Part shown: in pieces, positions 29,846 to 54,069 of the stretch
Layout of the letters: every line of letters begins with the position of its first letter
How positions within the stretch are numbered: the stretch's first letter is position 1
Assembly: GCF_004799685.1 (NCBI RefSeq)
Contig: NZ_CP031311.1
Span: 2,597,355 to 2,661,354 of the forward strand
DNA from: Halobellus limi
GTDB taxonomy: Archaea > Halobacteriota > Halobacteria > Halobacteriales > Haloferacaceae
Reading direction: 5' to 3'
Length of the DNA: 64,000 nt
The notes under the pieces: generated by a model
The model's input: the letters and a program-made list of their open reading frames with translations, nothing else
What the model was told of the DNA's origin: nothing
Database searches by the model: none
Program-made: the position numbers and the translations under genes

Positions 29846-29870
29846 GACAGCTCGATCTTCAGTCGAGTGC
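29846..29870. repeat. tRNA-Phe anticodon-arm fragment
   Basis: 25 bp identical to 30035-30059, the anticodon arm of tRNA-Phe. It is an isolated piece with no acceptor stem; no functional tRNA can fold from it. Confidence 0.85.
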
Positions 29871-30009: not shown

Positions 30010-30083
30010 ATGCCGCCTCCCGGATTTGAACCGGGGACAGCTCGATCTTCAGTCGAGTGCTCTCCCAGTCTGAGCTAAGGCGG
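30010..30083 (-). tRNA. tRNA-Phe (GAA)
   Basis: 74-nt gene: acceptor GCCGCCT/AGGCGGC, discriminator A, D-arm TAGCTCAGACTGGGAGAGC, anticodon loop CTGAAGA on a CTCGA/TCGAG stem, T-arm CCGGTTCAAATCCGG. Its 5' end faces the island and its 3' end faces the tRNA fragments. Confidence 0.96.
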
Positions 30084-30104
30084 CACGCATTTCGATCGAT
30101 GCCG

Positions 30105-30216: not shown

Positions 30217-30307
30217 GATCCAGCTTTTGCCAGCGTGAGACGGCAAAGCCTTCTCGCTGGCCGTAGACGAGGGCTTCCGGCGGCAGCCCGCAGCGCAAAA
30301 GGTGGAT
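30217..30307. repeat. Dispersed palindromic (REP-like) element, copy 2
   Basis: Outer arms GATCCAGCTTTTGC (30217-30230) and GCAAAAGGTGGAT (30295-30307; 12 of 13 pair). They share their ends with the element at 10533-10605 but have a different centre (CCAGCGTGAGACGG...). It ends exactly at the left attachment repeat of the island. Confidence 0.7.
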
Positions 30308-30320
30308 GGGCTCGGGCGGA
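30306..30320. repeat. attL, left attachment repeat
   Basis: ATGGGCTCGGGCGGA, identical to the tRNA-Val 3' end, followed by non-tRNA sequence (ACAAGCG). It is the tRNA end displaced by integration. Confidence 0.8.
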
Positions 30321-30398
30321 ACAAGCGCGGATCGCGTGCGTTTCCTTCCCTGTCGGTTTCGGCGTCCTCCAGTCTCCTAACGGGGTTCTGTGAGACCG

Positions 30399-31397
30399 AT
30401 GAAAACAGAACACGACGAACTCGATCCGTTGGAGCCGGACCGCGCGCAAGAGCTGTACCTGAAACAGAAAGAGATGGACGCATCGAAGAAGACGGTGCAG
30501 TCGCACAAATATCGACTGAACGCCTTCGTTCGATGGTGTGACGAGAACGACATAGATAACCTGAATGACTTGACCGGTCGCGACCTACAGGAGTATCGCC
30601 TGTGGCGACAGGATGACGCCGATTTGAAGAAAATCACCTTGACCCAACAGATGAGCACCATCCGGGTTTTCATCAAGTGGTGTGGCTCGATGGAAGCCGT
30701 CCCTGCGGATCTCTACGAGAAGGTTATGATTCCACGAGTGACTCCGGAGGAAGAGCGGTCCGAAGAGATGCTTGAGGCTGAAACTGCGGAAGCCATTCGA
30801 GAGCACCTAATGAGATACCACTATGCTTCGTTTGAGCAGACGATATTCGTGCTTCTCTGGGAGACAGGTATGCGGTTAGGTGGTGCTCATTCGTTGGATA
30901 TCGAAGACATAGATCTCGAAAACAGACGGCTTGCACTCGTTCATCGTCCCGAACAGGGCACGGAGTTAAAGAACGGTGGTGCCGGCGAGCGACCAATTGC
31001 GATTACGGAGGGCCTCGCCGAGATATTGCAGGAATTCATCGAAAACACACGGAAGAGAATCACCGACGAATATGGTCGCGATCCACTGTTTACATCGTCT
31101 CGCGGGAGAAGGTCTCGGAGTAGTCTGAGGCGGGCCGTGTATCGAGTCACTGCACCTTGTTTCAGGAATGAGCCTTGTCCCGGTTGTACAGGTAAGGACG
31201 ACAAGAAGTGTCCAGAAGCGGTCAGTCCGCATCCGATTCGTCGAGGTAGCATTACTCACTTCCTCACGAAGGACATTCCGACTGAGATCGTTAGCGACCG
31301 GATGAATGTGAGTCGTGACGTTCTCGATAAACACTACGATCGACGTTCTGAAGAGGTGAAACTAGAGCAACGAAGAGGGTACCTCGATAATATCTAA
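30399..31397 (+). CDS. Tyrosine recombinase (integrase) of the island
   Basis: 332 residues. N-terminal SAM-like core-binding domain (KTVQSHKYRLNAFVRWCDEN), then the catalytic domain with the first Arg in ETGMRLGGAHSLD, HPIRRGSITHF (H-x-x-R) and the nucleophile Tyr in DKHYDRR. A CPGC...KKC cluster lies before the H-x-x-R box, as is usual in haloarchaeal integrases. It catalyses site-specific integration/excision, here most likely at tRNA-Val. Start MKTEHDELDP (30399); a GTG at 30390 is possible. Confidence 0.92.
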   Translation: MKTEHDELDPLEPDRAQELYLKQKEMDASKKTVQSHKYRLNAFVRWCDENDIDNLNDLTGRDLQEYRLWRQDDADLKKITLTQQMSTIRVFIKWCGSMEAVPADLYEKVMIPRVTPEEERSEEMLEAETAEAIREHLMRYHYASFEQTIFVLLWETGMRLGGAHSLDIEDIDLENRRLALVHRPEQGTELKNGGAGERPIAITEGLAEILQEFIENTRKRITDEYGRDPLFTSSRGRRSRSSLRRAVYRVTAPCFRNEPCPGCTGKDDKKCPEAVSPHPIRRGSITHFLTKDIPTEIVSDRMNVSRDVLDKHYDRRSEEVKLEQRRGYLDNI

Positions 31398-32276: not shown

Positions 32277-32308
32277 AGCCCCTACCAAGTCCCTGTGGCA
32301 GATAATAT

Positions 32309-32323
32309 TTCGCATTATGTGAA
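32309..32323. promoter_or_regulatory. Putative IclR operator 1
   Basis: TTCGCATTATGTGAA, an imperfect palindrome (TTCRCA-N3-TGYGAA), 33 nt upstream of the IclR start; likely autoregulatory. Confidence 0.5.
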
Positions 32324-32384
32324 TACCCATATAGACTGGCTAAGATCATTATAAATTGTGTGACGTTACCACTGGCCTTGGTAG

Positions 32385-32399
32385 TCCCCATTATGCGAA
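32385..32399. promoter_or_regulatory. Putative IclR operator 2
   Basis: TCCCCATTATGCGAA; the right half (CATTATGCGAA) matches operator 1. Confidence 0.4.
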
Positions 32400-32511
32400 T
32401 ATGGGTAGAGTCGGGGCTCTTCGATTTACTAAGGCACCTAGCAGAAATCGACCGACACAGCGGAGATAATGCAGTCTCTGTAGAGCTGAAATACAAGGAA
32501 CCAATAGATCT

Positions 32512-32526
32512 TTCACATAATGAGAA
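32512..32526. promoter_or_regulatory. Putative IclR operator 3
   Basis: TTCACATAATGAGAA, the same palindrome read from the other strand. A half-site, CCGCATTAT, follows at 32563-32571, next to the promoter of the transporter unit (TAATTATAAG at about 32586-32595). Confidence 0.5.
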
Positions 32527-32657
32527 CTTCTCACTAAATTTTCTTTTATTTGATCTTATATTCCGCATTATTTTGGACAATTAGGTAATTATAAGTGGGT
32601 AGGTATTGAGGGATAGACTGATCTGTATGATAGCAGGTCACACGATGGAGGATCCCG

Positions 32658-32759
32658 ATGAGGAATTCAGATAAAGCAAACAATCAGGATCAGTTGTCGA
32701 GACGAATAGTCAGGAAGGCGGCGGAAGCAACACACCGTCTAGGATACATTCAGAGGTAA
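32658..32759 (+). CDS. 33-residue small ORF before the transporter
   Basis: Encodes MRNSDKANNQDQLSRRIVRK and a further 13 residues, basic and probably helical. A Shine-Dalgarno GGAGG ends six bases before its ATG, and its stop lies six bases before the BCCT start. It could be a real small protein or a translated leader. No membrane helix. Confidence 0.4.
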   Translation: MRNSDKANNQDQLSRRIVRKAAEATHRLGYIQR

Positions 32760-32765
32760 TCACAA

Positions 32766-34391: not shown

Positions 34392-34523
34392 AGAGCTATA
34401 TGTCTTGGAAAACCGAAAGGAGGCAGACCAAGCAAACTTATTTTCTATCTAAATTTCTGAACCACCACTTCATCCTCTCCACGAACAGCCCTATAAAACA
34501 ATGAACCAGAGAATTAAATTACA

Positions 34524-35999
34524 ATGATTACCGTAAACGGCAGTCTGACAATCCAAGACGTAGTTGCAGTAGCGCGTAATGAGGAACGGGTCAAATTAGC
34601 CTCCAAAGCAGTGGATCGGATGGCTAATTCTCGTAAGGCGGTTGACGATATCGTCAACTCGGATGACCGACGAGTGTACGGAGTGAATACGGGATACGGT
34701 GAGCTGAACGATAAAGAGATCTCACCGGAAATGATGACCCAGCATGAAGAAAACGTCATCAGATCCAACATCACAATCGGAGATCCGCTAGAAACTGACG
34801 TAGTTCGGGCAACAATGCTTGTCCGGGCAAACGCGTTTGCAGTGGGTCGATCTGGTGTCCGTCCAGTCGTTGCGGAACGGTTATTGGAATTATTGAACGC
34901 CGGAATCCATCCCATAGTTAGATCTCAAGGGAATACCGAAGATTACGGGTATTCGTCGGCGGTTGGTCGGGCTCTGATCGGTGAAGGTGAAGTGACGTAC
35001 AAAGACGAGACAATGTCTGCAGGTGAGGCTCTATCCAAGGAGGGAATTGACACCTTGTCTCTCCAGCCTAGAGAGGGACTTGCTTTGATGAGCGGGACTT
35101 CCTATACTCCCGGCCGGCTCGCACTACTGGTCAAGGATGTCAGAAGACTAGTAGAAGCTGCCGATGTCGCAGGTGCACTTTCGTTTTCGCTCGTCGGAAA
35201 AGAACCGGGAGCATTCTCTAGTCGAATTGGTGAGGTTCGTCCTTACGAGGGGTTCAAAGAAAGTGCTAGCATCATTAGAGAAGTAACTGGTATTGATGCG
35301 ACTAATCGCCGGCAGACCTCACAAGACCCCCTCTCACTCCGCTGTATGCCACAGGTCCACGGGTCTCTCCGCGAATTCTTGTCGACTGCCGAGTCATTGA
35401 TTAGAACTGAACTTCAGAGTGCAACTGATAACCCCCTTATTTTCCCAGATGGTGCGGTTTTCTCTTGCGGGAATTTCAACGCCCAACACCTATCGACGGC
35501 CGCTGACTCGTTAGCGCAATCTGTCACGAAAGTCGGTCGAATCAGTGAACGGAGGGCTGGATTGCTTGTCGAAGGTAACGGAGATCTGCCGTCGGCACTA
35601 ACCGACAACGTTGGTATTGGTCAGGGAATGGTACGAGCTCATTACTCTGCTGCATCACTGGCGGCAGAGGCATCGACAGTAGATACGGCGAGCACTCAAA
35701 TCGCTGACGTACCAATGGGGAAGGAAGACATTCAGGGTTTAGGTGCATTAGCAGTCAATAATTTGGCTTCTGTCGTCGAAACTGTAACGTATATAATAGC
35801 AATTGAATTATTATTTATTATCCGAGCTCATAAAATGTTGCAGAAACAAAGAGATACAGACTCAACAATTCCAAGGGACTTCTTAGCAGAACTCGATAGA
35901 GACACAGTCGAACCCGACAATGAGTGTATTCACGCTATTGCAGAAAGAATCTTAGACGGAACACTACACCGAGTGAGAGATAATTCAAACAAAGTCTAA
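34524..35999 (+). CDS. Histidase/aromatic ammonia-lyase homologue lacking the MIO triad
   Basis: 491 residues, aligning end to end with HutH-type lyases: YGVNTGYGEL, GEALSKEGIDTLSLQPREG, TSQDPLSLRCMPQVHGS, SCGNFNAQH and GKEDIQG. In HutH the cofactor MIO forms from Ala-Ser-Gly (GSVGASGDL); here the aligned site reads RSQGNTEDY, so Asn-Thr-Glu replaces the triad. HutH His83, Asn195 and Tyr280 positions are Asn, Ser and Leu; Tyr53, Gln277, Arg283, Phe329 and Glu414 are kept. It should not be a normal histidine ammonia-lyase. MIO-independent ergothionase, which releases trimethylamine from a histidine betaine, is the closest known precedent and fits the BCCT neighbour; this is inference. Confidence 0.85.
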   Translation: MITVNGSLTIQDVVAVARNEERVKLASKAVDRMANSRKAVDDIVNSDDRRVYGVNTGYGELNDKEISPEMMTQHEENVIRSNITIGDPLETDVVRATMLVRANAFAVGRSGVRPVVAERLLELLNAGIHPIVRSQGNTEDYGYSSAVGRALIGEGEVTYKDETMSAGEALSKEGIDTLSLQPREGLALMSGTSYTPGRLALLVKDVRRLVEAADVAGALSFSLVGKEPGAFSSRIGEVRPYEGFKESASIIREVTGIDATNRRQTSQDPLSLRCMPQVHGSLREFLSTAESLIRTELQSATDNPLIFPDGAVFSCGNFNAQHLSTAADSLAQSVTKVGRISERRAGLLVEGNGDLPSALTDNVGIGQGMVRAHYSAASLAAEASTVDTASTQIADVPMGKEDIQGLGALAVNNLASVVETVTYIIAIELLFIIRAHKMLQKQRDTDSTIPRDFLAELDRDTVEPDNECIHAIAERILDGTLHRVRDNSNKV

Positions 36000-38370: not shown

Positions 38371-38463
38371 GATCAGTTGAGAGATCGAAGTCTGTCGGTC
38401 TGTTCCCCATTGCTTACCACAAAACACGATACACCTCGCTGTAATACGGAAGGTAACGAGATT

Positions 38464-39498
38464 ATGCCGCCCTCGAATAATCAGGACTTGATGAGTTATA
38501 ATGAAGATACGGGACGATTCCAATTTGGACCCGATCTGAAGGCCAATATCGAAGAGAAGCTTAGCGATCTCCCCGATGAGGCATATGATCGGCTGTTAGA
38601 TCTTGTCCGTCTTGAGCCTACCAGTAACTCTAAGCTGAAGAATCAGTGGAATATGGCTTCGGGAAGCGAGGTCCACCAGTACCTGGAATCAGAACTGAAT
38701 CCATTCTACTACAGGGGTGATAATAGCTACATCCGCGTGACAAAAGAGGCGAAAGATTTTGTCCGTCAAAATAGTGGTCTAAACCAGTACGTGACAGAAG
38801 AGTCAGGCAGCTCCGAGGATGTGTCAGAAAACATCCGCAACCGAGACCTCTTGATGGATCTGGTTACGGTAGCACAGAGCCTTGGCCATCTACCGGACGA
38901 AAAAGAAATTGAGGCTAATTCTAGCTACTCTTCTGACCGATTTCGTAATGAGTTTGGAGGCTTGTTTGAGGCTTGCCAGGAGGCAGGTATCGTTCCGGAT
39001 TCAGTGACGAAGGACGACTATACGGCGGTAACAGAGAATAAAAAGGAGCAGGAGGCATCGCAAGCAGAAGACAGAGAATCGGAATATTCCACAAGTGATC
39101 CCTCGGCGGCGGAGCTGGTTGAGGAGTTACAATGGGTCAATCAAAATATTGAGACAGTTCCGTCTCCTAGTGATATGAACGAGTTGGGTATTTTTACTGG
39201 TCCTAAATATCAGGATCAGTTCGGGTCTTGGGATGAGGCACTTGATGCTGCGGGAATTGATAAGGGAGAAATGTTGCTACAGGATATGGATCGTGTAGCT
39301 GGCGAGGTCGCCAAAGACTTGACCCAGTCAGAAATGAATGAATACGGACGACACAGCTCAACGATGATAGCCCGTTACTTTGGGGGGTGGACTGAAGCTA
39401 AGGAGAGACTTCAAGAGTGGCGAAAAGAGAAGGAAAACGATTCATCGGAGGAATTTGATAATATGGTCAACGACCGTTTGGACGATATCCTGGGATAG
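38464..39498 (+). CDS. Winged-helix-like protein with homing-endonuclease-associated repeats
   Basis: 344 residues. Residues about 15-100 look like a winged helix (DEAYDRLLDLVRLEPTSNSK...). Three repeats follow: about 115-165 (LLMDLVTVAQSLGHLPDEKE), 210-265 (LVEELQWVNQNIETVPSPSD) and 275-325 (SEMNEYGRHSSTMIARYFGG). They have the spacing and GG/GSWxEA pattern of the HNH-repeat (homing-endonuclease-associated) DNA-binding module; no HNH catalytic motif is seen. Converges with the 3' end of the pbe genes, only 5 bp apart. Likely a DNA-binding regulator or accessory factor. Confidence 0.65.
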   Translation: MPPSNNQDLMSYNEDTGRFQFGPDLKANIEEKLSDLPDEAYDRLLDLVRLEPTSNSKLKNQWNMASGSEVHQYLESELNPFYYRGDNSYIRVTKEAKDFVRQNSGLNQYVTEESGSSEDVSENIRNRDLLMDLVTVAQSLGHLPDEKEIEANSSYSSDRFRNEFGGLFEACQEAGIVPDSVTKDDYTAVTENKKEQEASQAEDRESEYSTSDPSAAELVEELQWVNQNIETVPSPSDMNELGIFTGPKYQDQFGSWDEALDAAGIDKGEMLLQDMDRVAGEVAKDLTQSEMNEYGRHSSTMIARYFGGWTEAKERLQEWRKEKENDSSEEFDNMVNDRLDDILG

Positions 39499-39503
39499 CC
39501 TTC

Positions 39504-39986
39504 TTACTGGTCTACAAGGACGTCTTCTAAACGGTCTTCCCACTTCTGATCAGCTTCGTCGATGAAAGCGAGGAGGTCGAACTCGTCTTTCAAACTAATG
39601 TCCTGGTTTATTGCTTCTACGCCAGCATCGGCGTACTGCAGAGCCAGTTCCCAGAGCTCGCTGTCATCCGGGTCCTCGTCGCTGTGTTCCAGTTCGATGA
39701 GTTTGTAAATAAACTCGATTCCTTCCCGGTATTCGTTTTCTGAAGAACCGCCGACCCGGTTCACCTGAATGAAGTCTTGGGAGTAGCTGCCTTCGGACTC
39801 TGTACGCGGATCGTCTCGTAGAAAACCGAGGACTAGGCCTGCTGTGAAAAGTTCGTAGTTCGTGTCGAAGGGGTAGTCGTTCTTGTCGGTTACTTTGACG
39901 TTGTCGTTTTTGCGGGCGGTCCGAAGCACCATATTCCGGTAGATGTCGAATCGGGCTGTTTTGAGCCGTCTAGCAGTAGTACTCAT
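39504..39986 (-). CDS. pbeD: PbeD-like protein, last gene of the Dnd-Pbe operon
   Basis: 160 residues starting MSTTARRLKTARFDIYRNMV, mixed alpha/beta with an acidic C-terminal half. No catalytic motif is recognised. Assigned by position: the fourth gene after dndA, ATGA-overlapped with pbeC, as in the described archaeal DndCDEA-PbeABCD order. N-terminal LKTARFDIYRNMVLRTARKN is reminiscent of DndE-type DNA-binding helices. Confidence 0.6.
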   Translation of the reverse strand: MSTTARRLKTARFDIYRNMVLRTARKNDNVKVTDKNDYPFDTNYELFTAGLVLGFLRDDPRTESEGSYSQDFIQVNRVGGSSENEYREGIEFIYKLIELEHSDEDPDDSELWELALQYADAGVEAINQDISLKDEFDLLAFIDEADQKWEDRLEDVLVDQ

Positions 39987-42046
39987 TTGGCAAGCACCCG
40001 CTTGAGCTCGGTTTCTGATTCAATAGGGCTAATTTCAGAGGATTCGGGGTCGTCTTTTCGCTGGTGGATCTCTAGGTGGCTGGAGATGTTGTCGCCCATT
40101 TGCTCGATATCCTCTTTATCAAGTTCCCCGGGCTGGTAGAGGATGATAACTTGGTCACGGAAGTTGGGGAAGTAGTCGATCAGGTTCTCTTTGTGTTCTG
40201 GGTCGAGCCTGCCGATTGGCGTGTCGATGACGACCGGTGCTTCCCGAGCAGTGAACTTGTTGAGTCCAGCTATGAAGGAGTAGGCAATAATCTGACGAGC
40301 GCCTTTGCTGGGGTTCTGTTCTTCGATGTCTCGGTTGCCGGAGATTGTCTTAACGTCGAGTTCGTAGTCTTTGCTAATGGTAAGACCTTCGTAGACGTCG
40401 TTTTTGTTGGTGAGTTCTTGGAAGATTTTGGAGGCGTGTTTTTCGACGCTTTCACGTTGGGTTTCAACGTATTTGTCCCGAATTTCTTCCCAGGCATCAG
40501 CGCACTCGTCGGAGAGTTTCATCAGGGTGCGGTAGCGCTGTTCCTCTTCGTCGGCGGCTTCCATCGAGTTGACTGTCTGTTCCAATTCTCGCTTCTCTTC
40601 CTCAAGCTCGCTGATATCGTCTTCCAGGGTATCGATTGTGGTCTTCAGACCGCCGATCTCTTCGTCGAGAGTCTCCTTCATGTCTCGCAGAGATTCAGCT
40701 TCTTTGGCAGTGACGGTTGCTTTCTCGATATCGTCTTCCAGAGATTCTTTTTCGTCTTTGAGGGCGGTGATATCCTCTTTCAGGCTCTCGATATCCTCTT
40801 GAATGGAGACGTACTCGCTCTTAGCCTGGTTGACGTTCAGGTTCTCTGGGTAGTCGCCAGAGGTGAGACACTCAAGGTGGTCTGAGGCGAATCCTTGGAG
40901 TTCGGAGATGGTACTCATCTCGTCGTTCCGCAGCTGTTCAAGAGTGTGTTCTAAGGTCTCCTCGGCTTCTTCATCGATATCGGCTCCGCAGAGGCAGTTG
41001 TCCCGGCCAATAAGGTACTCAATGGTATCTTCCATCCCGGAGACGATGGAGACATCGTAGTTATCGATGGTGTGTTTTGCACCGATACCGATCATTAGTG
41101 GGCCGAGACGGGAGTGGAGTTCACGGCGTTCCCCACGTTTCTCGTCCAGTTTGTCCTGTAGCCCGTCTTCTTGATCGGTGCCTTCGATTTCTTCTTTGAT
41201 TTCGTTAACTCGATCCTGTTTGCCGGCTACACCAGAGGCTTCTGCAAGATCATCTTCGATTTGACTGCGGCGTTTCTCCTTCTGGCGAAGTTCGGTTTCG
41301 GCTGAGTCCTTCTCGGTCTTCTTCGCCTCGATGTCGCTCTTGACGCTACTGATATCCTCTGAAAGGCCTTGCAGTTCCTCTACGTCCTCTGCTTTGTCCT
41401 TCCATTCATCCTGGTAGTAGTCCTTCCCATCATCCCTGAGGTCGTGAATCGCGTTCTGAATCTCCCGAATCCCGAGAACAGTTTCAATTGCTTCTCGGAC
41501 ATCGGCTTCGGAGTCATTGTAGGATCCGGCGTATCGGTCGAGTTCCTCGCCGTCGAAGAAGAAGAAATCTGAGGCGCTTTCTGGGAGGATGCCATTGATG
41601 AACCGGTTGTACTTCTTGGCAGGGTCTTCGTTCGGTGCCTGATCGATTACTGTTTCCTTGCCTTCGCTGACGCTGGGCTTTTTGACGTTGACGTAGCAGG
41701 AGTTCCAATCCCGCTGATCAGGGTCATCGACTTGGTCGAACTCGATAACCCGCTCAATTTCGTAGACGTTCTGGTTATGGGTGAATTCGAGAGTGACGCT
41801 GGCTTCTCCTAATCCTTCTTTTGCGGCTTTCCGGTTGATTGCTTGCCGGCGTTTCTCTGATTTCTCTGCGTTACCGCCCTCGAATCCGTAAAGGCAGAAA
41901 CGCATCGCAGTGAAAAACGCAGTCTTCCCTCGGTCGTTTTTCGCTCCCATAAGGATTAGAGGAGAGTCACTGCTGGTTTGGAGGTCGACGGTGACCTCCT
42001 TGTAGAAGGGCATAAAGTTCTTGATAATCGCTTTCTGAACTTTCAT
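39983..42046 (-). CDS. pbeC: PbeC-like Rad50/SMC-type ATPase
   Basis: 687 residues. Walker A GAKNDRGKT (about 34-42), FFFFDGEELDRYAG (about 170), a long coiled coil (about 220-550) interrupted by a short CLCG and a later Cys, signature SKGARQI and Walker B VVIDTPIGRLD. The architecture is the same as DndD. In the Pbe module it takes part in blocking replication of unmodified viral DNA, without cutting it (known from the published archaeal system). Start MKVQKAIIKNF. Confidence 0.75.
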   Translation of the reverse strand: MKVQKAIIKNFMPFYKEVTVDLQTSSDSPLILMGAKNDRGKTAFFTAMRFCLYGFEGGNAEKSEKRRQAINRKAAKEGLGEASVTLEFTHNQNVYEIERVIEFDQVDDPDQRDWNSCYVNVKKPSVSEGKETVIDQAPNEDPAKKYNRFINGILPESASDFFFFDGEELDRYAGSYNDSEADVREAIETVLGIREIQNAIHDLRDDGKDYYQDEWKDKAEDVEELQGLSEDISSVKSDIEAKKTEKDSAETELRQKEKRRSQIEDDLAEASGVAGKQDRVNEIKEEIEGTDQEDGLQDKLDEKRGERRELHSRLGPLMIGIGAKHTIDNYDVSIVSGMEDTIEYLIGRDNCLCGADIDEEAEETLEHTLEQLRNDEMSTISELQGFASDHLECLTSGDYPENLNVNQAKSEYVSIQEDIESLKEDITALKDEKESLEDDIEKATVTAKEAESLRDMKETLDEEIGGLKTTIDTLEDDISELEEEKRELEQTVNSMEAADEEEQRYRTLMKLSDECADAWEEIRDKYVETQRESVEKHASKIFQELTNKNDVYEGLTISKDYELDVKTISGNRDIEEQNPSKGARQIIAYSFIAGLNKFTAREAPVVIDTPIGRLDPEHKENLIDYFPNFRDQVIILYQPGELDKEDIEQMGDNISSHLEIHQRKDDPESSEISPIESETELKRVLAK

Positions 42047-42050
42047 AGTG

Positions 42051-42260
42051 CTAATCCTCCATACTCCACCCGTTGTCGACGTAGTTCTCTAGTATCTGTC
42101 TTAATTCCGATGGAAGCCCCGCCCTCCGGTCCATCGTCACCATTTCTTTTTCGAGGACGTAGATCTCTTTCAGTAAACCCTCAGGGATATTCCGCTCGTC
42201 GGCCTGTTCAGCGATTAGTTTCTCAATCTCTGGGTCGATTTCCTCTTCGTCAGTACTCAT
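42051..42260 (-). CDS. pbeB: PbeB-like small protein
   Basis: 69 residues (MSTDEEEIDPEIEKLIAEQA...), acidic and helical; no domain recognised. It overlaps the pbeA stop by four bases and ends four bases before pbeC, so it is tightly coupled to both. Confidence 0.6.
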   Translation of the reverse strand: MSTDEEEIDPEIEKLIAEQADERNIPEGLLKEIYVLEKEMVTMDRRAGLPSELRQILENYVDNGWSMED

Positions 42261-44413
42261 ATTAGTGCTAGATGCCCCAGTCCGTACGGCTCAAGTTGTT
42301 CTCTAAGCATCTGTCGGATCTTTTCTTGATTGTCGGCAGAGTCCATAAGAACTCGACTTCGATGGAGTTCCTTCTTCACAAATTCCCTGGCCATGTTGTT
42401 ACCCTGCTCTGCGATGAGGCCAGGCAACGTGATCATATCATAGACCGATGCTTTCGATTTATCTTCACTTTTTCGAAGAACACGTCCCCGTCGTTGAATG
42501 AATTGTCTCTCATTACTTGAACTGGCGATGATAATCGCTGTCGGACAATCGGGTACATCTACCCCTTCATCCAGGCAGTTAATTGCCAGCAGGTAGTCTA
42601 CCATCCCATTATTGAACTGGTGGAAGGCACTGGCTTTCTTGTCATCGTCCATATCGGAGACGAACACTGCGTAGGAGTCCTCGCCCTTCTTCCGGTTCAG
42701 CTGGTCTTTGATTTGGTCAACCTGCTGATTGTCCTCGCAGAAGATGATGGCAGGGGTGGGATGGTATGTCTCAAGGAAGCGACCGAATCGGTGAGGCTTG
42801 TTCTCTGCTTTCTTCAGAATCTTGGCCCTATCTCTGGAGAGTCGTTCTTGTTTCTCCCTAAGTTTTTGAACCGACTTACTCGGGTTGTTGCTGTTTAGTT
42901 CGCTGGTGACTTGGCCGATTCGCTGGCTGTAGCTTTTGTATCTCTCGTATTCTTCCTCGTTGAGATCGCAGATTATGGGGTAGTAGTCGTAGCTGGATAG
43001 GTAGTTGTTCTCGATGGCTTCGGCGGTTTCGAACCGGAAGATGATATCGTCAAAGTAGTTCATAATCTTCCGGTTGCCTGCGTCGTCGAATCTGCGTTCA
43101 GGAGTCGCGGAGAGGCCGATACGTCGTCCTGCGTCTATTTCGAAGAGTTGGCTGAAGGTGTCTGCTCCGTATCGGTGGACTTCGTCAGCGACTATTTGCA
43201 GGCGGTTGGGGGGGACTCCGCGGAGGAAGCTTCGGAATGCGTCTCCGACTGCTGTGTGGATTGTCGTTAGAATGAACTGCTTAGGCCGGTCGTGGATTAC
43301 ATCCGTGCTTTCGGTTCGGTATGGATTGACCAGGCCAAGCATCTCTTGTCGCCAGTCCGTTTCTCCGCTGCAGACGAGGATTTCGGAATCTTCGATCAAC
43401 TCTTCGATGTCCTCTTTCCATTGATTGAGTAGAGTGGTTGTGGGGACAACGACCAGAGTTACTCTATTGTCGGCATCGAGATTGGCGGCCGCTATTGCAG
43501 CTCGGGTCTTTCCAGTCCCAGTCGCTAATGCGAAGATACCGTGATAGTCGTTTGCGATCCATTCGTCTATGGATTGTTCCTGGTGTTCCCAGAGCGGGAT
43601 TTCCTCTTCTTCGCTTTCCCCGGTGTCCTCCTTGTTGAACAGCTCGAGGTCTGGACGACCATCGACGGTTTCTGGACTGTGTTCTTTCAGCCCAGATTCT
43701 ACTGCGTCAGGTAGCTCTTTGACGGTTACTCGGGATTCCTCGTTGTTCCAAAGTTTGTTGAAGGATTCCCGTTTCTCGGAGGTCCGCATGTCGAGGCCAG
43801 GCCACCAGTTGGTGTAGACGTCGAAGGACTCGAAGTTGTCTGTCCAAGCTAATTCGGTCTCGTTGATGGAACCAAAGAAGGCCACCTGGTTACCGTGGTC
43901 GTCTGAAAAAACTCCCAATTTCTCGTGGTAGTGGCTGAACGGGTTGAGATCATCCGCATCGGTCATATAGGCAATACGGATTTCCAGCATCTCTTCTTCG
44001 AGCATCCAGGCGAGGCATTTGAAACGATCCCGTTTCAGGTAGTCCTCGAATTGTTCAGTTGAAAGCCCTCGGTGGAGGGCGTTCTCTATGACTTCGTTCT
44101 CGTCGAGATCGGTTTCTGGTTCTGAGGCTTGCTCCAGTACTTCGATGTCTTCGGGTTTGAGACGAGGGCTGACGATCAGCCGCATTTTACCATCGTTCAG
44201 AACCAGTTTGGATATCCCCTGAGCTGCGAGGACTAGTGATTTGCTGTCAAAGTAGCCAGCTGCCCGGTCGTATTGGTTCGCATTTCTAAGGCAGGGGATG
44301 TAGAAATCGTTCAGGATATCGTCGTTACCCGACCGATAGCTGTTTTGGAGGGAAAGAACTCTAAGACCTTGTTTTTCTTCCTCGGTCTGCTCAGAAGTTG
44401 TTCCGTCACCCAT
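42257..44413 (-). CDS. pbeA: PbeA-like superfamily 2 helicase with PLD-type domain
   Basis: 718 residues. The N-terminal ~250 residues resemble a phospholipase D-like domain (HEKLGVFSDDHGN..., FFGSINETE: the H-x-K and G-S-x-N half-sites). The helicase follows: Walker A ATGTGKTRAA, VVVPTTTLLNQW, DExH ADEVHRYG, SATPE, NCLDEGVDVPD and arginine-finger motif QRRGRVLR. Start MGDGTTSEQTE (44413) was chosen because the upstream extension is the antisense of dndA. Expected to work with PbeB-D as the restriction-like arm. Confidence 0.75.
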   Translation of the reverse strand: MGDGTTSEQTEEEKQGLRVLSLQNSYRSGNDDILNDFYIPCLRNANQYDRAAGYFDSKSLVLAAQGISKLVLNDGKMRLIVSPRLKPEDIEVLEQASEPETDLDENEVIENALHRGLSTEQFEDYLKRDRFKCLAWMLEEEMLEIRIAYMTDADDLNPFSHYHEKLGVFSDDHGNQVAFFGSINETELAWTDNFESFDVYTNWWPGLDMRTSEKRESFNKLWNNEESRVTVKELPDAVESGLKEHSPETVDGRPDLELFNKEDTGESEEEEIPLWEHQEQSIDEWIANDYHGIFALATGTGKTRAAIAAANLDADNRVTLVVVPTTTLLNQWKEDIEELIEDSEILVCSGETDWRQEMLGLVNPYRTESTDVIHDRPKQFILTTIHTAVGDAFRSFLRGVPPNRLQIVADEVHRYGADTFSQLFEIDAGRRIGLSATPERRFDDAGNRKIMNYFDDIIFRFETAEAIENNYLSSYDYYPIICDLNEEEYERYKSYSQRIGQVTSELNSNNPSKSVQKLREKQERLSRDRAKILKKAENKPHRFGRFLETYHPTPAIIFCEDNQQVDQIKDQLNRKKGEDSYAVFVSDMDDDKKASAFHQFNNGMVDYLLAINCLDEGVDVPDCPTAIIIASSSNERQFIQRRGRVLRKSEDKSKASVYDMITLPGLIAEQGNNMAREFVKKELHRSRVLMDSADNQEKIRQMLREQLEPYGLGHLALI

Positions 44414-44439
44414 TGCTTGGATATGTGTAGGAATGTTTG

Positions 44440-45621
44440 TCAGCTTATTTGTAGCTTCCGCAGGCGGGAGACGCTCTGAATAACCTGATCTGTGGCGTGC
44501 TCGATTTCTTCCTTGGTGTTGTCTTTCCCAAGGCCGAACCGGACTGCTGAGTGCCAGCGTTCTTCGTCGCCGCCTATGGCTTGGAGTACGTGTGAGGCTT
44601 CGACCTTGCCGGTTGTACAGGCTGAGCCGGCTGAGACGGCTAGCTCTGGTTGTAGATTCTGAACGAGAGCTTTGTTTTCGACGCCGAGGAAGCTGACGTT
44701 CAGGTTGTTGGGGATCCGCTTCTCCGGGTGGCCGTTGAGCACGACATCGTCGAGTTTGCTGTTGAAGCGGTCCCACATATAGGACGTGAGTTCGTCGACG
44801 TGCTGACGGCGTTCATCCATCTCTTTGTCGGCCAGCTGTACAGCCTTCCCAAGTCCGACAATGGAGGGGACATTCAGGGTGCCGGAGCGCCAGCCTCGTT
44901 CGTGGCCACCGCCGTGGATGAGTGGGTCGAGTTTGACTTTGGGGTTGCGTCGGCGGACATAGAGAGCTCCGATGCCTTTTGGTCCGTAGATCTTGTGGGC
45001 AGAGATCGACATCAGGTCAATCCCCATCTCTTCGACGTCGATGGGGACGTAGCCCACTGCTTGGACTGCGTCAGTGTGGAAGAAGACCTCGTTGTCTTTG
45101 GCGACTTTCCCGATTTCTTTGAGAGGTGCGATAGTTCCGATCTCGTTGTTGGCGGCCATTATCGAGATCAGGAGTGTATCGTCTCGGATGGCCTCTTCCA
45201 CGTCATCAGGGTTGATCAGTCCGTTTTCGTCGACGGGGAGGTAGGTAACGTCGAAGCCACGTTCTTCTAACACCTCACAGGCTTCGAGAACAGCTTCGTG
45301 CTCGGTTTCTCCGGTGATGATGTGGTTGCCTTTGTCTTTTCTCTCAGCGTAGTCAGCGACGCCCTTGGTAGCTAAGTTGTCGGACTCTGTTGCGCCGCTT
45401 GTGAAGATGATTTCTTCCTTTCGACAGTTGAGCACCTCCGAGATCTGTTCCCTGGCCTGTTCGACGCCTTCCTTTGCTTTGGCTCCGTAGAGATGATCGT
45501 CGCTGGCTGGGTTTCCGAAGTTCTCCGTGAGGTACGGCGTCATCTCTTCGGCTACCCGCTCATCTACCGGTGTAGTGGCGTGATGATCGAGGTACACCGC
45601 GTCGTCAAGAGCCGGAGTCAT
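44440..45621 (-). CDS. dndA: Cysteine desulfurase DndA
   Basis: 393-residue IscS/NifS-type PLP enzyme: YLDHHATTPVD, TSGATESDNLA, the PLP lysine in SISAHKIYGPKG, and catalytic Cys in SAGSACTTGKVEASHVL. It supplies sulfur for DNA phosphorothioation through DndC. The four-base overlap with dndE places it inside the operon. Confidence 0.93.
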   Translation of the reverse strand: MTPALDDAVYLDHHATTPVDERVAEEMTPYLTENFGNPASDDHLYGAKAKEGVEQAREQISEVLNCRKEEIIFTSGATESDNLATKGVADYAERKDKGNHIITGETEHEAVLEACEVLEERGFDVTYLPVDENGLINPDDVEEAIRDDTLLISIMAANNEIGTIAPLKEIGKVAKDNEVFFHTDAVQAVGYVPIDVEEMGIDLMSISAHKIYGPKGIGALYVRRRNPKVKLDPLIHGGGHERGWRSGTLNVPSIVGLGKAVQLADKEMDERRQHVDELTSYMWDRFNSKLDDVVLNGHPEKRIPNNLNVSFLGVENKALVQNLQPELAVSAGSACTTGKVEASHVLQAIGGDEERWHSAVRFGLGKDNTKEEIEHATDQVIQSVSRLRKLQIS

Positions 45622-46031
45622 GGTAGCCCACTATCCGGTTCCACATCGGTATCTTCTTTCAAGCTATTGGGGATCAAGGCTTGGAAGTCGCTGAGGTCGC
45701 TGATGTTTCCGTGAACACGGATCACTCCACGGTTCAGATGGGCTACGAACTCGTCGTATAGATCTTCCTCCGGGTCTTTGTCCTCCTGAATCAGCCGCTC
45801 TTTCAGGAGGGCCATATAGAGTGCGTCGTGTTCTCCCAGTAGGGTGTACCGGTTGAACGTCTGACCGTCGTTATCGTATTCCTGTGGGTTTGGCGGCCGT
45901 GGTTCGTTCAGGGAGTAGCAGAGGCCGATTCTGCAGAGGTAGTTCGGTGTGAGTCCGGTATTCCCTTTCAGCATTCGTAGCCGATTCGTGGCGTCTGTCC
46001 CGATCTGGATCCGGTTGAACTCTTTGCTCAT
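45618..46031 (-). CDS. dndE: DndE, DNA-binding phosphorothioation protein
   Basis: 137 residues with the DndE signature FNRIQIGTDATNRLRMLKGN followed by TGLTPNYLCRIGLCYSLNEP. The family binds nicked or double-stranded DNA and is needed for sulfur insertion. The C-terminal ~25 residues are an acidic extension. Confidence 0.9.
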   Translation of the reverse strand: MSKEFNRIQIGTDATNRLRMLKGNTGLTPNYLCRIGLCYSLNEPRPPNPQEYDNDGQTFNRYTLLGEHDALYMALLKERLIQEDKDPEEDLYDEFVAHLNRGVIRVHGNISDLSDFQALIPNSLKEDTDVEPDSGLP

Positions 46032-48055
46032 TGGGGAACACCTTCTAAGTCGATTTCCTCGGCTTGGTCAGGGCTTGACCAGAAGTAACCTCGACTGACG
46101 GACGTGTAGCCTTCTTGCTGGTTGTAGTCCAGGTGGTAGGACTGAGTAACGTCGTCGTTCAGCTGGTCGTAGTATTCGTCGTCGATTTCCGTGTCGGTGG
46201 AGAAGACTAGGACTTGGTGTGCTGCTTCCGGGAAGAAGTTCTCCACGAGGTTTTCTCGGTGTGCTTTGTCGAGGCGTCCGAGCGGAGTGTCGACGATGAA
46301 AGGAAGTGGTCTGCCAGAGATCTCTGCCAGTGCCCAGAGCAGAGCAGTTGCGAAGATCTGGCGTTCGCCGGCGGAGAGTTCCGACTGGGGTTTGTGGTTC
46401 CCGTGTTTGGTTTTGACCTGAATGTTGAGTTCTTCTTCGTCGACTTCGATACCTTCGTAGAAGTCGCTCTTGTTAGACAGGGCAAGATATCGTTCAGTAA
46501 GGGCGTCCTCCAGATTTCGGAGTTTTTCCTTAGCCAGGTCTTCCCGGTATTCGCTCAGAACATCTTGAACGTCGGAGGCAAGGTCAGCCCGTTCTGAAAT
46601 GGTTTCCTCGTCTTCCTTACGGTCGAGTTTGTTGTCGATTTGGTTCCCAAGGCGGGAGGTCCGGGTTTCGAGTGTACTCAGTTCCTCTTCGATATCCTCG
46701 AGATCGGATTTGAGGGATTCTTTCTCTTCTATCAGTTCGTTCAGTTCTTCGATTAGAGGGGAGATGTCCTCTTCTTCGGGAGCACGTCCGAGCTGTGATT
46801 CGATATCCTGCAGCTCTCGAACCATGCTCTCGAGTTCACTGGATTTGGAGCCGAGGTTTTCAGGTACTTCGTTCAGTGCTTGGTCGACGACACCATACAT
46901 CTCTCGGCGCTGGGATTCAGAGAATTGGTGGAGGAGTTGAGTGTCCTCATCGTCGACTTGGAATCGGTTCTTGATCTCTGACTGAAGTCGCGTCTTGATC
47001 TCTTCAGCTTGGTCGTCAGGGACATCAAGGTCACTGAAGACTTCGCCATTCAGTGCTTCGTCAAGTTCGCTGTCCAGTCGTTCGCGGGCGGCAGCAGTTT
47101 CCTGCTTCTCGCTTTCTTCTTTCAACCGGTTAACTACGCTTTTGCAGAGGTCAGGTGCTAGTGCGAAGGGGTATGCATCGGTGGCGATTTCACGGATGTC
47201 TTCTTCGACGTTCTCGATTTTCGCGTTGAGTTCTGCTCTACGTTCTTTCAGCTCTTCGCGTTTGTCGGCGTAGGCACCTCCCTCTTGGGCGATATCTGCT
47301 TCCTTGCTGTCAATCTCTGTTTCCAGTTCAGCAAGGCGGCCTTCTTTGTCCTCTTTTTCATCTTTTAGCTCCTGACGGCGGTTTTCCAGTTCTTCTTTTT
47401 CTTTACGGAGCTCTTTGATCTCATCGTTGAGGCCTTCAAGACCGCTTTCGTCGAGTTTTCTGGAGCGGTAGATGGAGAGGTCAGCGTCAAGTCGGTCAAC
47501 GAGATCGAGGCCGAGCAGGGAGAAGAGTGAGTCCTCGAAGCTTTCGTCATCTTCGATAGCGGTAGCCAGCTCTTGGACTTTCTCCCCGTCGAAGAAGAAT
47601 AGTTGGGATACTCCCGGCGGGATCAGCTCTTTCAGGAAGTCTTCCCACTGGTCTTTGTCTAGGTCGGACGGAAGTTTTCCGTTTCGCCGTACCTCAAGGT
47701 TCTCGACGATGCTCTTGCCGCGGTCGCGCCAAGATCGTTCTACGCTGTAGTGGTCGACCTCGCCCATGTAGGCGTACTCAAATTCGAGGCGGATCGATGC
47801 TTCATCAGCAGAGTGGTCCGAGTATTCGTGGAGTTTCCCTCTGATGTGTTCTTTGTAGTCCGATTCGCTGACTCGTCGACCTAACGCGCTTCGACCGTGT
47901 AGACAGATCTGGATTCCTCGGAACAGGGTGGTTTTCCCGGCTCCGTTTGAACCGCCGAAAAGGATGATCGGGGATTCCTGTGAGGTAGAAAGTTGGAACT
48001 CGTTTCTGCCGCGATATGGTCCGAAATCGTTGATGACCAGCTTTGTCAGTTTCAT
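46028..48055 (-). CDS. dndD: DndD, SMC-like ATPase of phosphorothioation
   Basis: 675 residues: Walker A GGSNGAGKTT (about 34-43), LFFFDGEKVQELA, long coiled coil (about 205-510), signature SAGERQIFATALLWALAEIS and Walker B FIVDTPLGRLDKAHREN. ATPase thought to open or remodel DNA for DndC/DndE. It overlaps dndE by four bases. Confidence 0.93.
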   Translation of the reverse strand: MKLTKLVINDFGPYRGRNEFQLSTSQESPIILFGGSNGAGKTTLFRGIQICLHGRSALGRRVSESDYKEHIRGKLHEYSDHSADEASIRLEFEYAYMGEVDHYSVERSWRDRGKSIVENLEVRRNGKLPSDLDKDQWEDFLKELIPPGVSQLFFFDGEKVQELATAIEDDESFEDSLFSLLGLDLVDRLDADLSIYRSRKLDESGLEGLNDEIKELRKEKEELENRRQELKDEKEDKEGRLAELETEIDSKEADIAQEGGAYADKREELKERRAELNAKIENVEEDIREIATDAYPFALAPDLCKSVVNRLKEESEKQETAAARERLDSELDEALNGEVFSDLDVPDDQAEEIKTRLQSEIKNRFQVDDEDTQLLHQFSESQRREMYGVVDQALNEVPENLGSKSSELESMVRELQDIESQLGRAPEEEDISPLIEELNELIEEKESLKSDLEDIEEELSTLETRTSRLGNQIDNKLDRKEDEETISERADLASDVQDVLSEYREDLAKEKLRNLEDALTERYLALSNKSDFYEGIEVDEEELNIQVKTKHGNHKPQSELSAGERQIFATALLWALAEISGRPLPFIVDTPLGRLDKAHRENLVENFFPEAAHQVLVFSTDTEIDDEYYDQLNDDVTQSYHLDYNQQEGYTSVSRGYFWSSPDQAEEIDLEGVPQ

Positions 48056-48072
48056 TGATGAGAGGTGGGGGA

Positions 48073-49554
48073 TCAGGTCTGCGACTCAGACGTATACTGC
48101 CAGTTTTCAACGTTCTCTTCGCCTTCGATATCAGCTACGATCTCTTCCATCGGACGCCAGTCCTCTCGCATAACCTTGTCAATCTCGTTGTAGATAGAGG
48201 CCCGGCGCTTCATACCATGGTGCTGAAGCTCAGTGTCCAGGAGGCGCTGCACCAGTTCGGGAGGAACGTCGTGCTTGTCTGCGATTTCTTTGAGCAGTTT
48301 AGCTTCAGTTTCTCCGAACGCTCCGTAGTCGTCTTGGACCCAGCCGATGTCCTCTTCCATCGCCTCTCTGTAGATTTTGGGAACGGAGTCTTCCCAGTCT
48401 GCTCGTTCCTCTCTCCAAATCCGGCGGATTTCCCGTAGTTCCTCATCCCGGATCAGATCCATCTCTTCGTCGTCCGGGATCTGTTCGTTGACCTCTTTCT
48501 GGGTTTCCAGCAGCTTTCTCAGTAGGTCTTTGCAGAACTCAAACTTGTGGGCTCGGGGGATGATCCCGTTGTCGCCGTTGGTTTTGGTTTTGACGTAGCC
48601 GTGTTGCCGGCCTTTGACCTGCCTGTATTTTGGTTTCTCGTCAGGGTCTTGAGTAGATTTCAGGAAGTCTCGGAACTCGAGGAGTGGTTCCATCCACTCA
48701 TCGCCTTCGTCGATCATATTCTGCATCGCCTTGTCTTCGGAGACGACGGTGCAGGTCCAGCAACCGAATCGGCTGTTACCGCAGGACGGTGTTTTTGTGT
48801 CGATGACCATCGGGCATTCGTCGTCGGCCTCTTGGTACAGGGCTGCGAGGTCGCGGTTTTCCTTGCCCCAGGGACATTCGACTTGGAGGAGGTAGGACCA
48901 GACGTCGTCGACGATCCAGTCTTCGATTGGTGTGTAGACGAAGGCGTTGGCGAATTTGTTGTGGCGGGAGAGGATGCTGCCGTCGATGCTGTGCAGATCC
49001 ATAACCTGCTCTCTCGTTGCACTTTCTGCTTTTCGGACTCCGAGGACGACGATTACTTCGCCGTGTTCTGAGACTTTGTTCTCGATGAAGCGGTCAGCTG
49101 GGTCGATTTTTAGGCGTTCGGTACACCAGCGGAAGGTCTGGTTGGGTGCTGGGTAGCCTCGACCGATTAGGTTGACCCAGAATGAGTCGTCAACCTTCGG
49201 GGTTACTTTGTGGGCTTCGAAGGGAAGATCTTCTTTCTCGGCGTATTCGTTGATGTTTTCAAGTGTACTGGTGATGTGGTTTACAATCTTGGGAGTTTCA
49301 ACGAGTGTGTCGCTAGAGATGACGTGTATAGGTTTAGTTTGCTGCTCATCTGGGATTTCTTTGATAGCGTACCAGATGAGTTGTAGGGCGGTGGTCGAGT
49401 CTTTACCGCCGCTGTACCCGATTACCCAAGGACGCTCGTCCGCGAGATAGGCTTCCCGAATTTCCTCATAGATATCCTCGAGAGAGCGACTGTCGAATAC
49501 GGACTCACCTTTCTCCTGACCCGTATTTGAAACGTCGAGATTGTCAGTACTCAT
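48073..49554 (-). CDS. dndC: DndC, PAPS-reductase-like sulfurtransferase
   Basis: 493 residues. PP-loop IGYSGGKDSTTAL (about 45-57), WCTERLKI, GVRKAESATREQ, and a Cys cluster C...CWTC (about 255-270) that is expected to hold a 4Fe-4S cluster. It activates the DNA backbone phosphate for sulfur transfer. First of the four modification genes, 17 nt before dndD. Confidence 0.94.
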   Translation of the reverse strand: MSTDNLDVSNTGQEKGESVFDSRSLEDIYEEIREAYLADERPWVIGYSGGKDSTTALQLIWYAIKEIPDEQQTKPIHVISSDTLVETPKIVNHITSTLENINEYAEKEDLPFEAHKVTPKVDDSFWVNLIGRGYPAPNQTFRWCTERLKIDPADRFIENKVSEHGEVIVVLGVRKAESATREQVMDLHSIDGSILSRHNKFANAFVYTPIEDWIVDDVWSYLLQVECPWGKENRDLAALYQEADDECPMVIDTKTPSCGNSRFGCWTCTVVSEDKAMQNMIDEGDEWMEPLLEFRDFLKSTQDPDEKPKYRQVKGRQHGYVKTKTNGDNGIIPRAHKFEFCKDLLRKLLETQKEVNEQIPDDEEMDLIRDEELREIRRIWREERADWEDSVPKIYREAMEEDIGWVQDDYGAFGETEAKLLKEIADKHDVPPELVQRLLDTELQHHGMKRRASIYNEIDKVMREDWRPMEEIVADIEGEENVENWQYTSESQT

Positions 49555-49626
49555 TACTTAGACTCTTGTTTATAGTTCCCTCATAGAAGCCACTTGTATC
49601 TACCGTTGCGGCACCCACCGGTTCCA

Positions 49627-50088
49627 CTACGATCCGTCGATTTTCCATTGTATACTCACCATATCGAGGTCTGTTTTTTTGAGTGATGACGCACCTTTTT
49701 CGATTGCCTGTCGAACTGATATCTCGTCCTTCATCAGGAAGATATCGTAGTTCTTTCTGCGTTGATGTGCTAGTGAGTTTCTGAGTATGTCTGATGAATC
49801 TACCTTCTTGTTTTGGACAACGCAGTATTCCTGTGGTTGGTCAGCGACCTCCAGGTCGTAGAAGAAATTATTCAAGATTTGTCTCACTTCCGATAGCTCT
49901 TCTCCCGGCACTTCGAACCGGTACTTGTCAGAGTCATAGTATTTGTCGAGTTGCTGGAAGAGGTCATCTTTATCGAAGTACTGTTTGAACAGGTACGTCT
50001 GGCCGAACTCAAAGACAGTGATCCGCTCTTGTTCTACATCGAAGGTGGGCATATCTGAATGGGCGGCTGGCGTGTTTGAGTGTAGCAC
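49627..50088 (-). CDS. Unknown protein heading the dnd operon
   Basis: 153 residues from GTG 50088 (141 from ATG 50052, MPTFDVEQERITVFEFG). The N-terminal part looks beta-rich, with a helical region EELSEVRQILNNFFYDLEV. It has no similarity I recognise to DndB or other Dnd proteins. Only 72 nt upstream of dndC and behind the only good promoter of the cluster, so it is probably cotranscribed. Start uncertain. Confidence 0.6.
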   Translation of the reverse strand: MLHSNTPAAHSDMPTFDVEQERITVFEFGQTYLFKQYFDKDDLFQQLDKYYDSDKYRFEVPGEELSEVRQILNNFFYDLEVADQPQEYCVVQNKKVDSSDILRNSLAHQRRKNYDIFLMKDEISVRQAIEKGASSLKKTDLDMVSIQWKIDGS

Positions 50089-52188: not shown

Positions 52189-52911
52189 CTAGGCCGAAAT
52201 ACTCAGTTCTCGTGCCTCCTCGGGATTCGTCTTTATTCGTTTAATACGCTCTGCAGATTCGAGATTTTTTGTTAATGTGAGTAGTTCTCGTCCCCGCAAT
52301 TCAAGCCACGTCGTGCCAAAATTACTCCGCTCCGCCTCAGTTGCAGGAATCCAATAACAGTCTCCGATGAATTCCTTGCTTCCCTTGGACGCGAACGCGA
52401 ATGCTGTCGTCTCTTTCGGTATCGAGGTCAACGCGTCCTGAGCAGCAATCAGATACTTGCTCCCTAATACGACGAAGACCAAGTGGTAGCCCTTGGCAAG
52501 GATTTGCCGGAGGTCCTGAGGGATATTCTTCTCCCGGCCAACAGCCGCTACTAACTCGTTGTTGGTCATCGCATCTACGTCGAGGTTCATCCGTTCTGCC
52601 CGTTGACGAACCTGCTCAATCTCGTTGAATGTACATTCATAGGGCGGAATCTCTGTTCCAGCAGAGAGGACACCAAACCCGGCAGAGATGATACGCCAAT
52701 CCACATTGGCGAACTTCGAAAGCTGTTGTACAGCTGATTCGATATGTTCGTGTTCGCGTCCCGTGTACATCTCAGCCGCCGAAGCGACAGCACCGGGATA
52801 CTCTTTCAGTAACTCTGTCCGCTCCCGCGAATCTATCTCTTCGGGGCCGATAACGGCATCAAATCGCTTCGTTCCGGAGCAAGGCGAAATAACGAGAACA
52901 TCAGTTCCCAT
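52189..52911 (-). CDS. YaaA/DUF6884-like protein
   Basis: 240 residues starting MGTDVLVISPCSGTKRFDAV. The N-terminal SPCSGTK, AEMYTGREHEHIE and WRIISAGFGVLSAGT pattern resembles the C-x-x-x-K...LY...ISAxxGL pattern of DUF6884/YaaA-type and queuosine/archaeosine-transferase-related proteins found in DNA-modification loci. Assignment tentative. It is divergent from the GIY-YIG-like gene with 83 bp between. Confidence 0.5.
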   Translation of the reverse strand: MGTDVLVISPCSGTKRFDAVIGPEEIDSRERTELLKEYPGAVASAAEMYTGREHEHIESAVQQLSKFANVDWRIISAGFGVLSAGTEIPPYECTFNEIEQVRQRAERMNLDVDAMTNNELVAAVGREKNIPQDLRQILAKGYHLVFVVLGSKYLIAAQDALTSIPKETTAFAFASKGSKEFIGDCYWIPATEAERSNFGTTWLELRGRELLTLTKNLESAERIKRIKTNPEEARELSISA

Positions 52912-52994
52912 TGGTGTATTCTTGTTTCGAATGACTACTCAGAGAACGAAACTCTTTGTGGACGTACCGGAGTAGCATATGTTAAGAGACAACG

Positions 52995-53705
52995 ATGGCA
53001 CGACGTGAGGATATTGACCGGCTCTATGCACTCCTTGACGAATTAGAGCAGACAGTCGGCGGAAAACAGAAGCTCAAGGACTGCACCGGCTATATGGATT
53101 GGCCCGACCGAGGCGTCTACTTCTTCTTTGCATCTGACGAACGCGCCGACGCCGGCGACCAACTTCGAATTACTCGTATCGGGACTCACGCTGTCTCCGA
53201 GGGAAGCAGAACTTCACTCTGGGACCGACTCAGAACGCATCGCGGAGCAAATCGGGGAACCTACGAAGGTGGCGGGAACCATCGAGGCTCCGTCTTCCGG
53301 AAACGAGTCGGTGAGGCCTTCCTGGCGCGTGATTCCCTGGATGATGAGTATCCCCACTGGGGGGAAGGGTCGAGCGCGAAACGGGACCGACGACGCAGGG
53401 AATTGGAGTTGGAGCGCCGAGTGAGCGACTACATCCGGGACCTGCCGTTCCTCTGGCTGAACGTCGACGACGAACCGAGCGCCGAGAGCCGGCGAGCGTA
53501 TATCGAGCAGAACACGATCGCGCTCCTGAGTAACTACCAGCGAGAGGCCGTCGATGCTCGTTCAGATGGTTGGCTCGGTAACCACAGTCGAAGCGAGAAG
53601 ATCCGCAAATCGGGACTGTGGAACGTCAACCACGTCGACGAAGAGTACGACGCTGCGTTCCTCGACGACTTCGCAGATGCAGTCGAGGAGACGACTCCTC
53701 CGTGA
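52995..53705 (+). CDS. GIY-YIG-like nuclease-family protein
   Basis: 236 residues. WPDRGVYFFFASDERADAGD, then RITRIGTHAVSEGSRTSLWD and RLRTHRGANRGTYEGGGNHR with GSVFRKRVGEA give a GIY-YIG-type pattern (GVYFFF / RVGTHA, Arg, conserved HRGS). A helical C-terminal part carries the motif IEQNTIALLSNYQ. Possibly a DNA nuclease or binding protein. Higher GC than the dnd genes, so perhaps acquired separately. Confidence 0.6.
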   Translation: MARREDIDRLYALLDELEQTVGGKQKLKDCTGYMDWPDRGVYFFFASDERADAGDQLRITRIGTHAVSEGSRTSLWDRLRTHRGANRGTYEGGGNHRGSVFRKRVGEAFLARDSLDDEYPHWGEGSSAKRDRRRRELELERRVSDYIRDLPFLWLNVDDEPSAESRRAYIEQNTIALLSNYQREAVDARSDGWLGNHSRSEKIRKSGLWNVNHVDEEYDAAFLDDFADAVEETTPP

Positions 53706-53995: not shown

Positions 53996-54010
53996 ATGGG
54001 CTCGGGCGGA
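53996..54010. repeat. attR, right attachment repeat inside tRNA-Val
   Basis: ATGGGCTCGGGCGGA, the 3' acceptor and T-stem end of tRNA-Val; identical to 30306-30320. Confidence 0.8.
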
Positions 54011-54069
54011 TTCGAACCACCGATCTCTTCCTTGTAAGGGAAGCGTCATAACCACTAGACCACGAGCCC
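53997..54069 (-). tRNA. tRNA-Val (UAC)
   Basis: 73-nt gene: acceptor GGGCTCG/CGAGCCC, discriminator A, D-arm TGGTCTAGTGGTTATGAC, anticodon loop CTTACAA on CTTCC/GGAAG, T-arm GGTGGTTCGAATCCGCC. Its 3' end faces the island, so it is the integration target and has been kept intact. Confidence 0.95.

Follow-up and report, generated by a model that had tools for sequence, protein, structure and literature searches.

Gene composition of the operon

In the window (the whole analysed stretch of 64,000 nt of Halobellus limi DNA, contig NZ_CP031311.1), eight genes lie head to tail on the minus strand, from position 49554 to 39504, in the order dndC-dndD-dndE-dndA-pbeA-pbeB-pbeC-pbeD. A further conserved gene stands before dndC.

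49627..50052, minus strand: conserved gene of a 141-aa protein, lying 72 nt before dndC and without a Pfam or PADLOC family
48073..49554, minus strand: dndC, sulfurtransferase, 493 aa (TIGR03183, 571 bits)
46028..48055, minus strand: dndD, Rad50/SMC-type ATPase of the modification complex (TIGR03185, 530 bits)
45618..46031, minus strand: dndE (TIGR03184, 86 bits; match to PDB 7x4e)
44440..45621, minus strand: dndA, cysteine desulfurase (PADLOC DndA, 571 bits; GSAC motif)
42257..44413, minus strand: pbeA, PLD/HKD nuclease domain and SF2 helicase, 718 aa from ATG (PADLOC PbeA, 709 bits, 1.9e-213; ResIII, Helicase_C)
42051..42260, minus strand: pbeB, 69 aa, homologous to the DndD-docking segment of DndC (PADLOC PbeB, 2.8e-12; PF20306)
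39983..42046, minus strand: pbeC, CxC-type Rad50-like ATPase, DndD paralogue (PADLOC PbeC, 1083 bits, E=0)
39504..39986, minus strand: pbeD, 160 aa, all-helical, possible distant DndE relative (PADLOC PbeD, 4e-63)

All eight reading frames of the operon are open. Neighbouring genes are separated by 17 nt (dndC/dndD), 26 nt (dndA/pbeA) or 4 nt (pbeB/pbeC), or overlap by 4 nt (dndD/dndE, dndE/dndA, pbeA/pbeB and pbeC/pbeD). The original prediction, made from the letters alone, had described eight genes in this position, order and strand with overlaps or gaps up to 26 nt; sequence and profiles bear out each of these points, the last one exactly, as the largest gap (dndA/pbeA) is 26 nt.

The curated NCBIfam cut-offs are exceeded by DndC (TIGR03183), DndD (TIGR03185) and DndE (TIGR03184), and the contiguous dndC, dndD and dndE are accompanied by the cysteine desulfurase gene dndA, which is the gene set of DndCDEA. 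It is followed by the gene set of PbeABCD in order: pbeA (PLD, ResIII, Helicase_C), a small pbeB, pbeC with AAA and coiled-coil parts, and pbeD of the ~150-aa class. The pbe names had been assigned from order and size; they are now backed by the PADLOC profiles PbeA-PbeD, which match all four downstream genes from end to end, so that the proposed check on similarity to published Pbe proteins turned out positive for each of them. PbeB, DndE and DndC are each present in a single copy in the genome. The predicted absence of dndB and dndFGH also holds for the operon: a profile search of the operon genes revealed neither, and a search of the whole genome gave no relative of DndB or DptH, both of which were detected in the positive control. 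The TIGR03238 profile was silent in the positive controls too and is uninformative on absence.

The eight genes stand in the same order in Natronosalvus hydrolyticus and in further haloarchaea. Together with the gene set and the profiles, this bears out the predicted match to the archaeal DndCDEA-PbeABCD system. We therefore regard the locus, with high confidence, as a DndCDEA-PbeABCD phosphorothioation defence operon carried by an integrative element. It is a further location of the system published in 2019, not a new kind of system.

The 141-aa gene upstream of dndC

The gene at 49627-50052 is also found ahead of dndC in seven or more further loci of haloarchaea, and in all eight genomes with matches above 240 bits it stands immediately before dndC. 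Its product carries a C-terminal tail, WK(I/T)(D/N)GS, which is missing in the distant, dnd-free relatives found in many haloarchaea. A confident alpha-beta model was obtained (pLDDT 83); Pfam and PADLOC searches with the protein gave no match, and a structural search with the model gave no significant one. In two loci (L043 and L050) the gene is seemingly split into two frames, and since it is apparently broken there, it is not strictly needed everywhere. The gene, which is undescribed in the papers found by our literature search, is a candidate for an extra component or regulator of the system.

Modification genes and the predicted target site

DndC contains the motifs SGGKDS (at 48) and CGNSRFGCWTC (at 258) and an NQT specificity loop (138-140). 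The motifs are invariant in 17 DndC proteins, with the specificity loop reading NQT or NQN in 15 of the 17. The C-terminal docking segment occupies residues from about 418 to 462, and PF20306 matches residues 418-461. The PDB search for DndC relatives yielded nothing useful. In DndD, Walker A and the LSAGER signature are conserved (15/15) and the CxC motif is lacking. DndE matches the solved DndE structure 7x4e along its full length (E=5e-43). That structure comes from Natronorubrum bangense JCM 10635, which was among the four haloarchaea in the founding paper (PMC6459918). DndA scores strongly as a class-V cysteine desulfurase and has the catalytic Cys335 in its conserved GSAC motif; its TIGR03235 score (472.9) lies just below the cut-off of 480.

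The Halobellus limi DndC, with an NQT loop in the same 138-140 numbering and the motif GATC, is included in PMC12193691, where NQT or TQN loops of DndC are linked to GATC motifs. Since the loop N138-Q139-T140, also found in other loci compared here, is of this kind, the modification site is predicted to be GATC.

The integrative element and its surroundings

The operon is located on an island with a GC content of 48-54%, versus 62-71% outside. Its ends are marked by the following features.

30307..30320, plus strand: 14-nt copy of the tRNA-Val 3' end, left island end
30390..31397, plus strand: tyrosine integrase, left island end (PF00589, 5.7e-11)
53997..54069, minus strand: tRNA-Val, right island end; its last 14 bases (53997-54010) are the presumed attachment repeat

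The 14-nt direct repeat TGGGCTCGGGCGGA occurs at 30307 and at the tRNA-Val 3' end (53997), and we infer that it is the attachment site. The integrase begins ~70 bases past the left copy. The element would thus measure ~23.7 kb (30307-54010). Low GC, the tRNA-Val repeat and the adjoining integrase support the predicted mobile nature of the island.

Other genes of the island and its borders can be listed as follows. The right end bears a second defence candidate (52189-53705), in which a DUF6884/DpdC-like gene (52189-52911, minus strand; PDC-M57A, 1.3e-4) adjoins a PDC-M57B gene (52995-53705, plus strand; 4.6e-79). A gene of a DUF5797 and HNH-associated-repeat protein (38377-39498) is convergent with pbeD and ends 5 nt from its stop; the same neighbour of pbeD is found in loci L001 and L036. 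Metabolic cargo occupies 31521-35999 and includes an IclR-type regulator (31521-32330), a BCCT transporter (32766-34391) and a gene (34524-35999) with a sequence suggestive of an aromatic ammonia-lyase of the histidase type. Fragments of the tRNA-Phe gene (30010-30085) are repeated just outside, at 29840-29870 and 29906-29922, and are perhaps scars of earlier integrations.

PbeA and the question of DNA cleavage

The mechanically called pbeA frame encodes 839 aa from a GTG start at 44776, and the profile match begins only at residue 138. The first in-frame ATG, at 44413, gives 718 aa; the longer frame is too long, and this ATG is the start. ResIII and Helicase_C were found in PbeA. The Pfam PLD match falls below the cut-off (21.9 of 27 bits), with the HKD residues present: H163-x-K and GSxN are invariant in 15 of 15 homologues.

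The original prediction repeated that the system blocks virus replication without cutting. In favour of this, viral DNA cleavage was not seen in a Southern blot for a homologous haloarchaeal locus (PMC6459918); it is one blot only, however, and PbeA retains a complete HKD motif in the present operon. The case of the founding paper against a nuclease motif in PbeA concerns PD-(D/E)XK only (PMC6459918). In a 2024 re-annotation, PbeA is a nuclease-helicase of the HKD type and PbeC an ATPase of the CxC type, while PbeD is classed as a cognate of DndE and the small PbeB as disordered (PMC10853773). The intact HKD motif of our PbeA agrees with the criticism of the no-cleavage view in that study (PMC10853773).

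PbeC and PbeD

PbeC carries its CxC motif (C351-L-C353) at the apex of the coiled coil. The motif is present in all ten PbeC proteins compared, as CxxC in one sequence. The ABC signature of ten aligned PbeC sequences reads S-x-G-A/Q-R/T-Q-I, without the LSxGE form, and that of DndD reads LSAGERQ (15/15). A PDB search for PbeC relatives gave nothing useful.

Comparison of PbeD with the DndE profile was not significant (hhalign probability 2.2%). The best PDB match of the PbeD model (pTM 0.72) is the N. bangense DndE, at a weak E=0.71, so the modelled fold lends the published PbeD-DndE kinship weak support.

PbeB and the C-terminal segment of DndC

The Pfam and PADLOC models of PbeB also match residues 418-462 of DndC. 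In the Halobellus limi genome, PF20306 matches PbeB and DndC only (3.3e-9 and 1.3e-8). Across 391 haloarchaeal genomes, it gives 27 matches above the cut-off, all in frames of PbeB (9) or DndC (18) size; of the 18 DndC-sized frames, 17 were verified to be DndC from their retrieved loci. The relation is reciprocal: among ~7,140 frames, an HMM profile of PbeB retrieves DndC tails and a profile of DndC tails retrieves PbeB proteins. Direct alignment of the two by hhalign gives 97% probability (P=4.7e-11). Sixty column-shuffled PbeB profiles reached at most 9.3 bits on DndC, compared with 31.3 for the real profile.

A function of this segment was described for DndC of E. coli B7A, in which residues 433-482 are predicted to bind the globular domain (head) of DndD and the triple mutation L458D/E462A/R471A abolishes DndD binding in pull-downs (PMC12193691). 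An E. coli DndC fetched for comparison has L458, E462 and R471 in the numbering of that paper. At the mapped places of the interface, the 11 PbeB proteins have I, V or L in 11, E in 10 (Glu or Gln in 11) and R in 11; the counterparts in the window are I33, E37 and R46.

By these profile comparisons, PbeB is homologous to the DndD-docking C-terminal segment of DndC. This relation is not stated in the papers found by a literature search, which covered papers outside subscription. Since the three mutated residues are matched in PbeB, and because DndD and PbeC are paralogues, PbeB probably docks, by analogy, on the PbeC ATPase as its docking module. DndC is missing from nine genomes that carry PbeA/PbeC-type loci, yet in several of them a short frame weakly similar to PbeB lies between pbeA and pbeC; such frames make PbeC, rather than DndD, the likely partner of PbeB. 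The DndC-like form is not universal: in Halorubrum trapanicum, the small protein falls into a different Pfam family (Sp-CxC).

Alternatively, PbeB could be a disordered, fast-evolving regulator restraining the nuclease until a viral trigger removes it, as proposed in PMC10853773. The shortness of PbeB and the strong sequence divergence of the small proteins of other CxC loci speak for such a role. However, the core of haloarchaeal PbeB linked to phosphorothioation (PT) is conserved, aligns to DndC 418-462 and keeps the three interface residues, and deletion of pbeB abolished protection with no toxicity described (PMC6459918), an outcome at odds with a repressor that holds a killer nuclease in check. 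This role is unlikely here, and PbeBCD is probably a paralogue of the modification complex.

The shared docking segment, together with the placement of dnd and pbe genes in one operon, would also allow PbeB to tune modification by competing with DndC for DndD, instead of serving PbeC. But pbeB adjoins pbeC in every locus examined, including those with separate or convergent dnd genes (L038, L039), and candidate small proteins are present in genomes devoid of DndC, which leaves little probability for the competition. That the operon is decayed or silent cargo, as its mobile, low-GC host element might suggest, is very improbable given eight open frames, intact catalytic motifs and a gene order kept in distant haloarchaea.

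We thus favour, with fair though not full confidence, the reading in which PbeB is the DndD-docking module of DndC turned free-standing, and PbeBCD is a duplicated phosphorothioation complex with the sulfurtransferase swapped for a helicase-nuclease.

Proposed organization of the system

In the proposed scheme, sulfur would be supplied by DndA and inserted into the DNA backbone by DndC-DndD-DndE, presumably at GATC, as suggested by the NQT loop of DndC. PbeB-PbeC-PbeD could form a second, paralogous complex on DNA, in which PbeC would take the place of DndD, as is known, and PbeD that of DndE, as published and weakly supported here. PbeB would represent the DndD-docking segment of DndC minus the sulfurtransferase part; it is the homology that stands behind this assignment, and binding is the expected consequence. 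The Pbe complex may therefore have kept the DNA-reading clamp, with the sulfurtransferase replaced by PbeA. This helicase, which bears an HKD nuclease domain, could act on unmarked DNA and stop virus replication.

If this is true, one DNA reader is used twice, for writing the mark and then for punishing its absence. The kinship of PbeB with DndC provides a concrete model of how the complex is assembled, in a system of disputed mechanism (block without cutting versus hidden cleavage), and concerns the smallest essential protein of the system, previously without an assigned role. This kinship and the conserved gene upstream of dndC are what the present analysis adds to the original prediction.

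Comparison with known systems

DndCDEA-PbeABCD was first described by Xiong in 2019 in H. jeotgali A29, a strain later referred to as Natrinema thermotolerans A29, and in three further haloarchaea (PMC6459918). A homologous haloarchaeal locus reduced SNJ1 plaques ~10,000-fold in a PT-dependent manner, without visible DNA cleavage (PMC6459918). The Halobellus limi operon has the same gene set and order as the A29-type system, the same lack of adjacent dndB and dndFGH, the same domain make-up of PbeA and PbeC, and the same predicted GATC target. The protein sizes also agree (PbeB 66 versus 69 aa here, PbeD 152 versus 160 aa here), and no difference in kind was found.

The Pfam family PF20306 (Sp-DndD) includes PbeB; its model also scores haloarchaeal DndC tails above the cut-off, a relation absent from the family description. 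With the CxC ABC-ATPase/DndE-anchored systems (PMC10853773), the operon shares the CxC motif of PbeC and the HKD-helicase fusion of PbeA. The small protein is called disordered in those systems, whereas here it is a homologue of the DndC tail.
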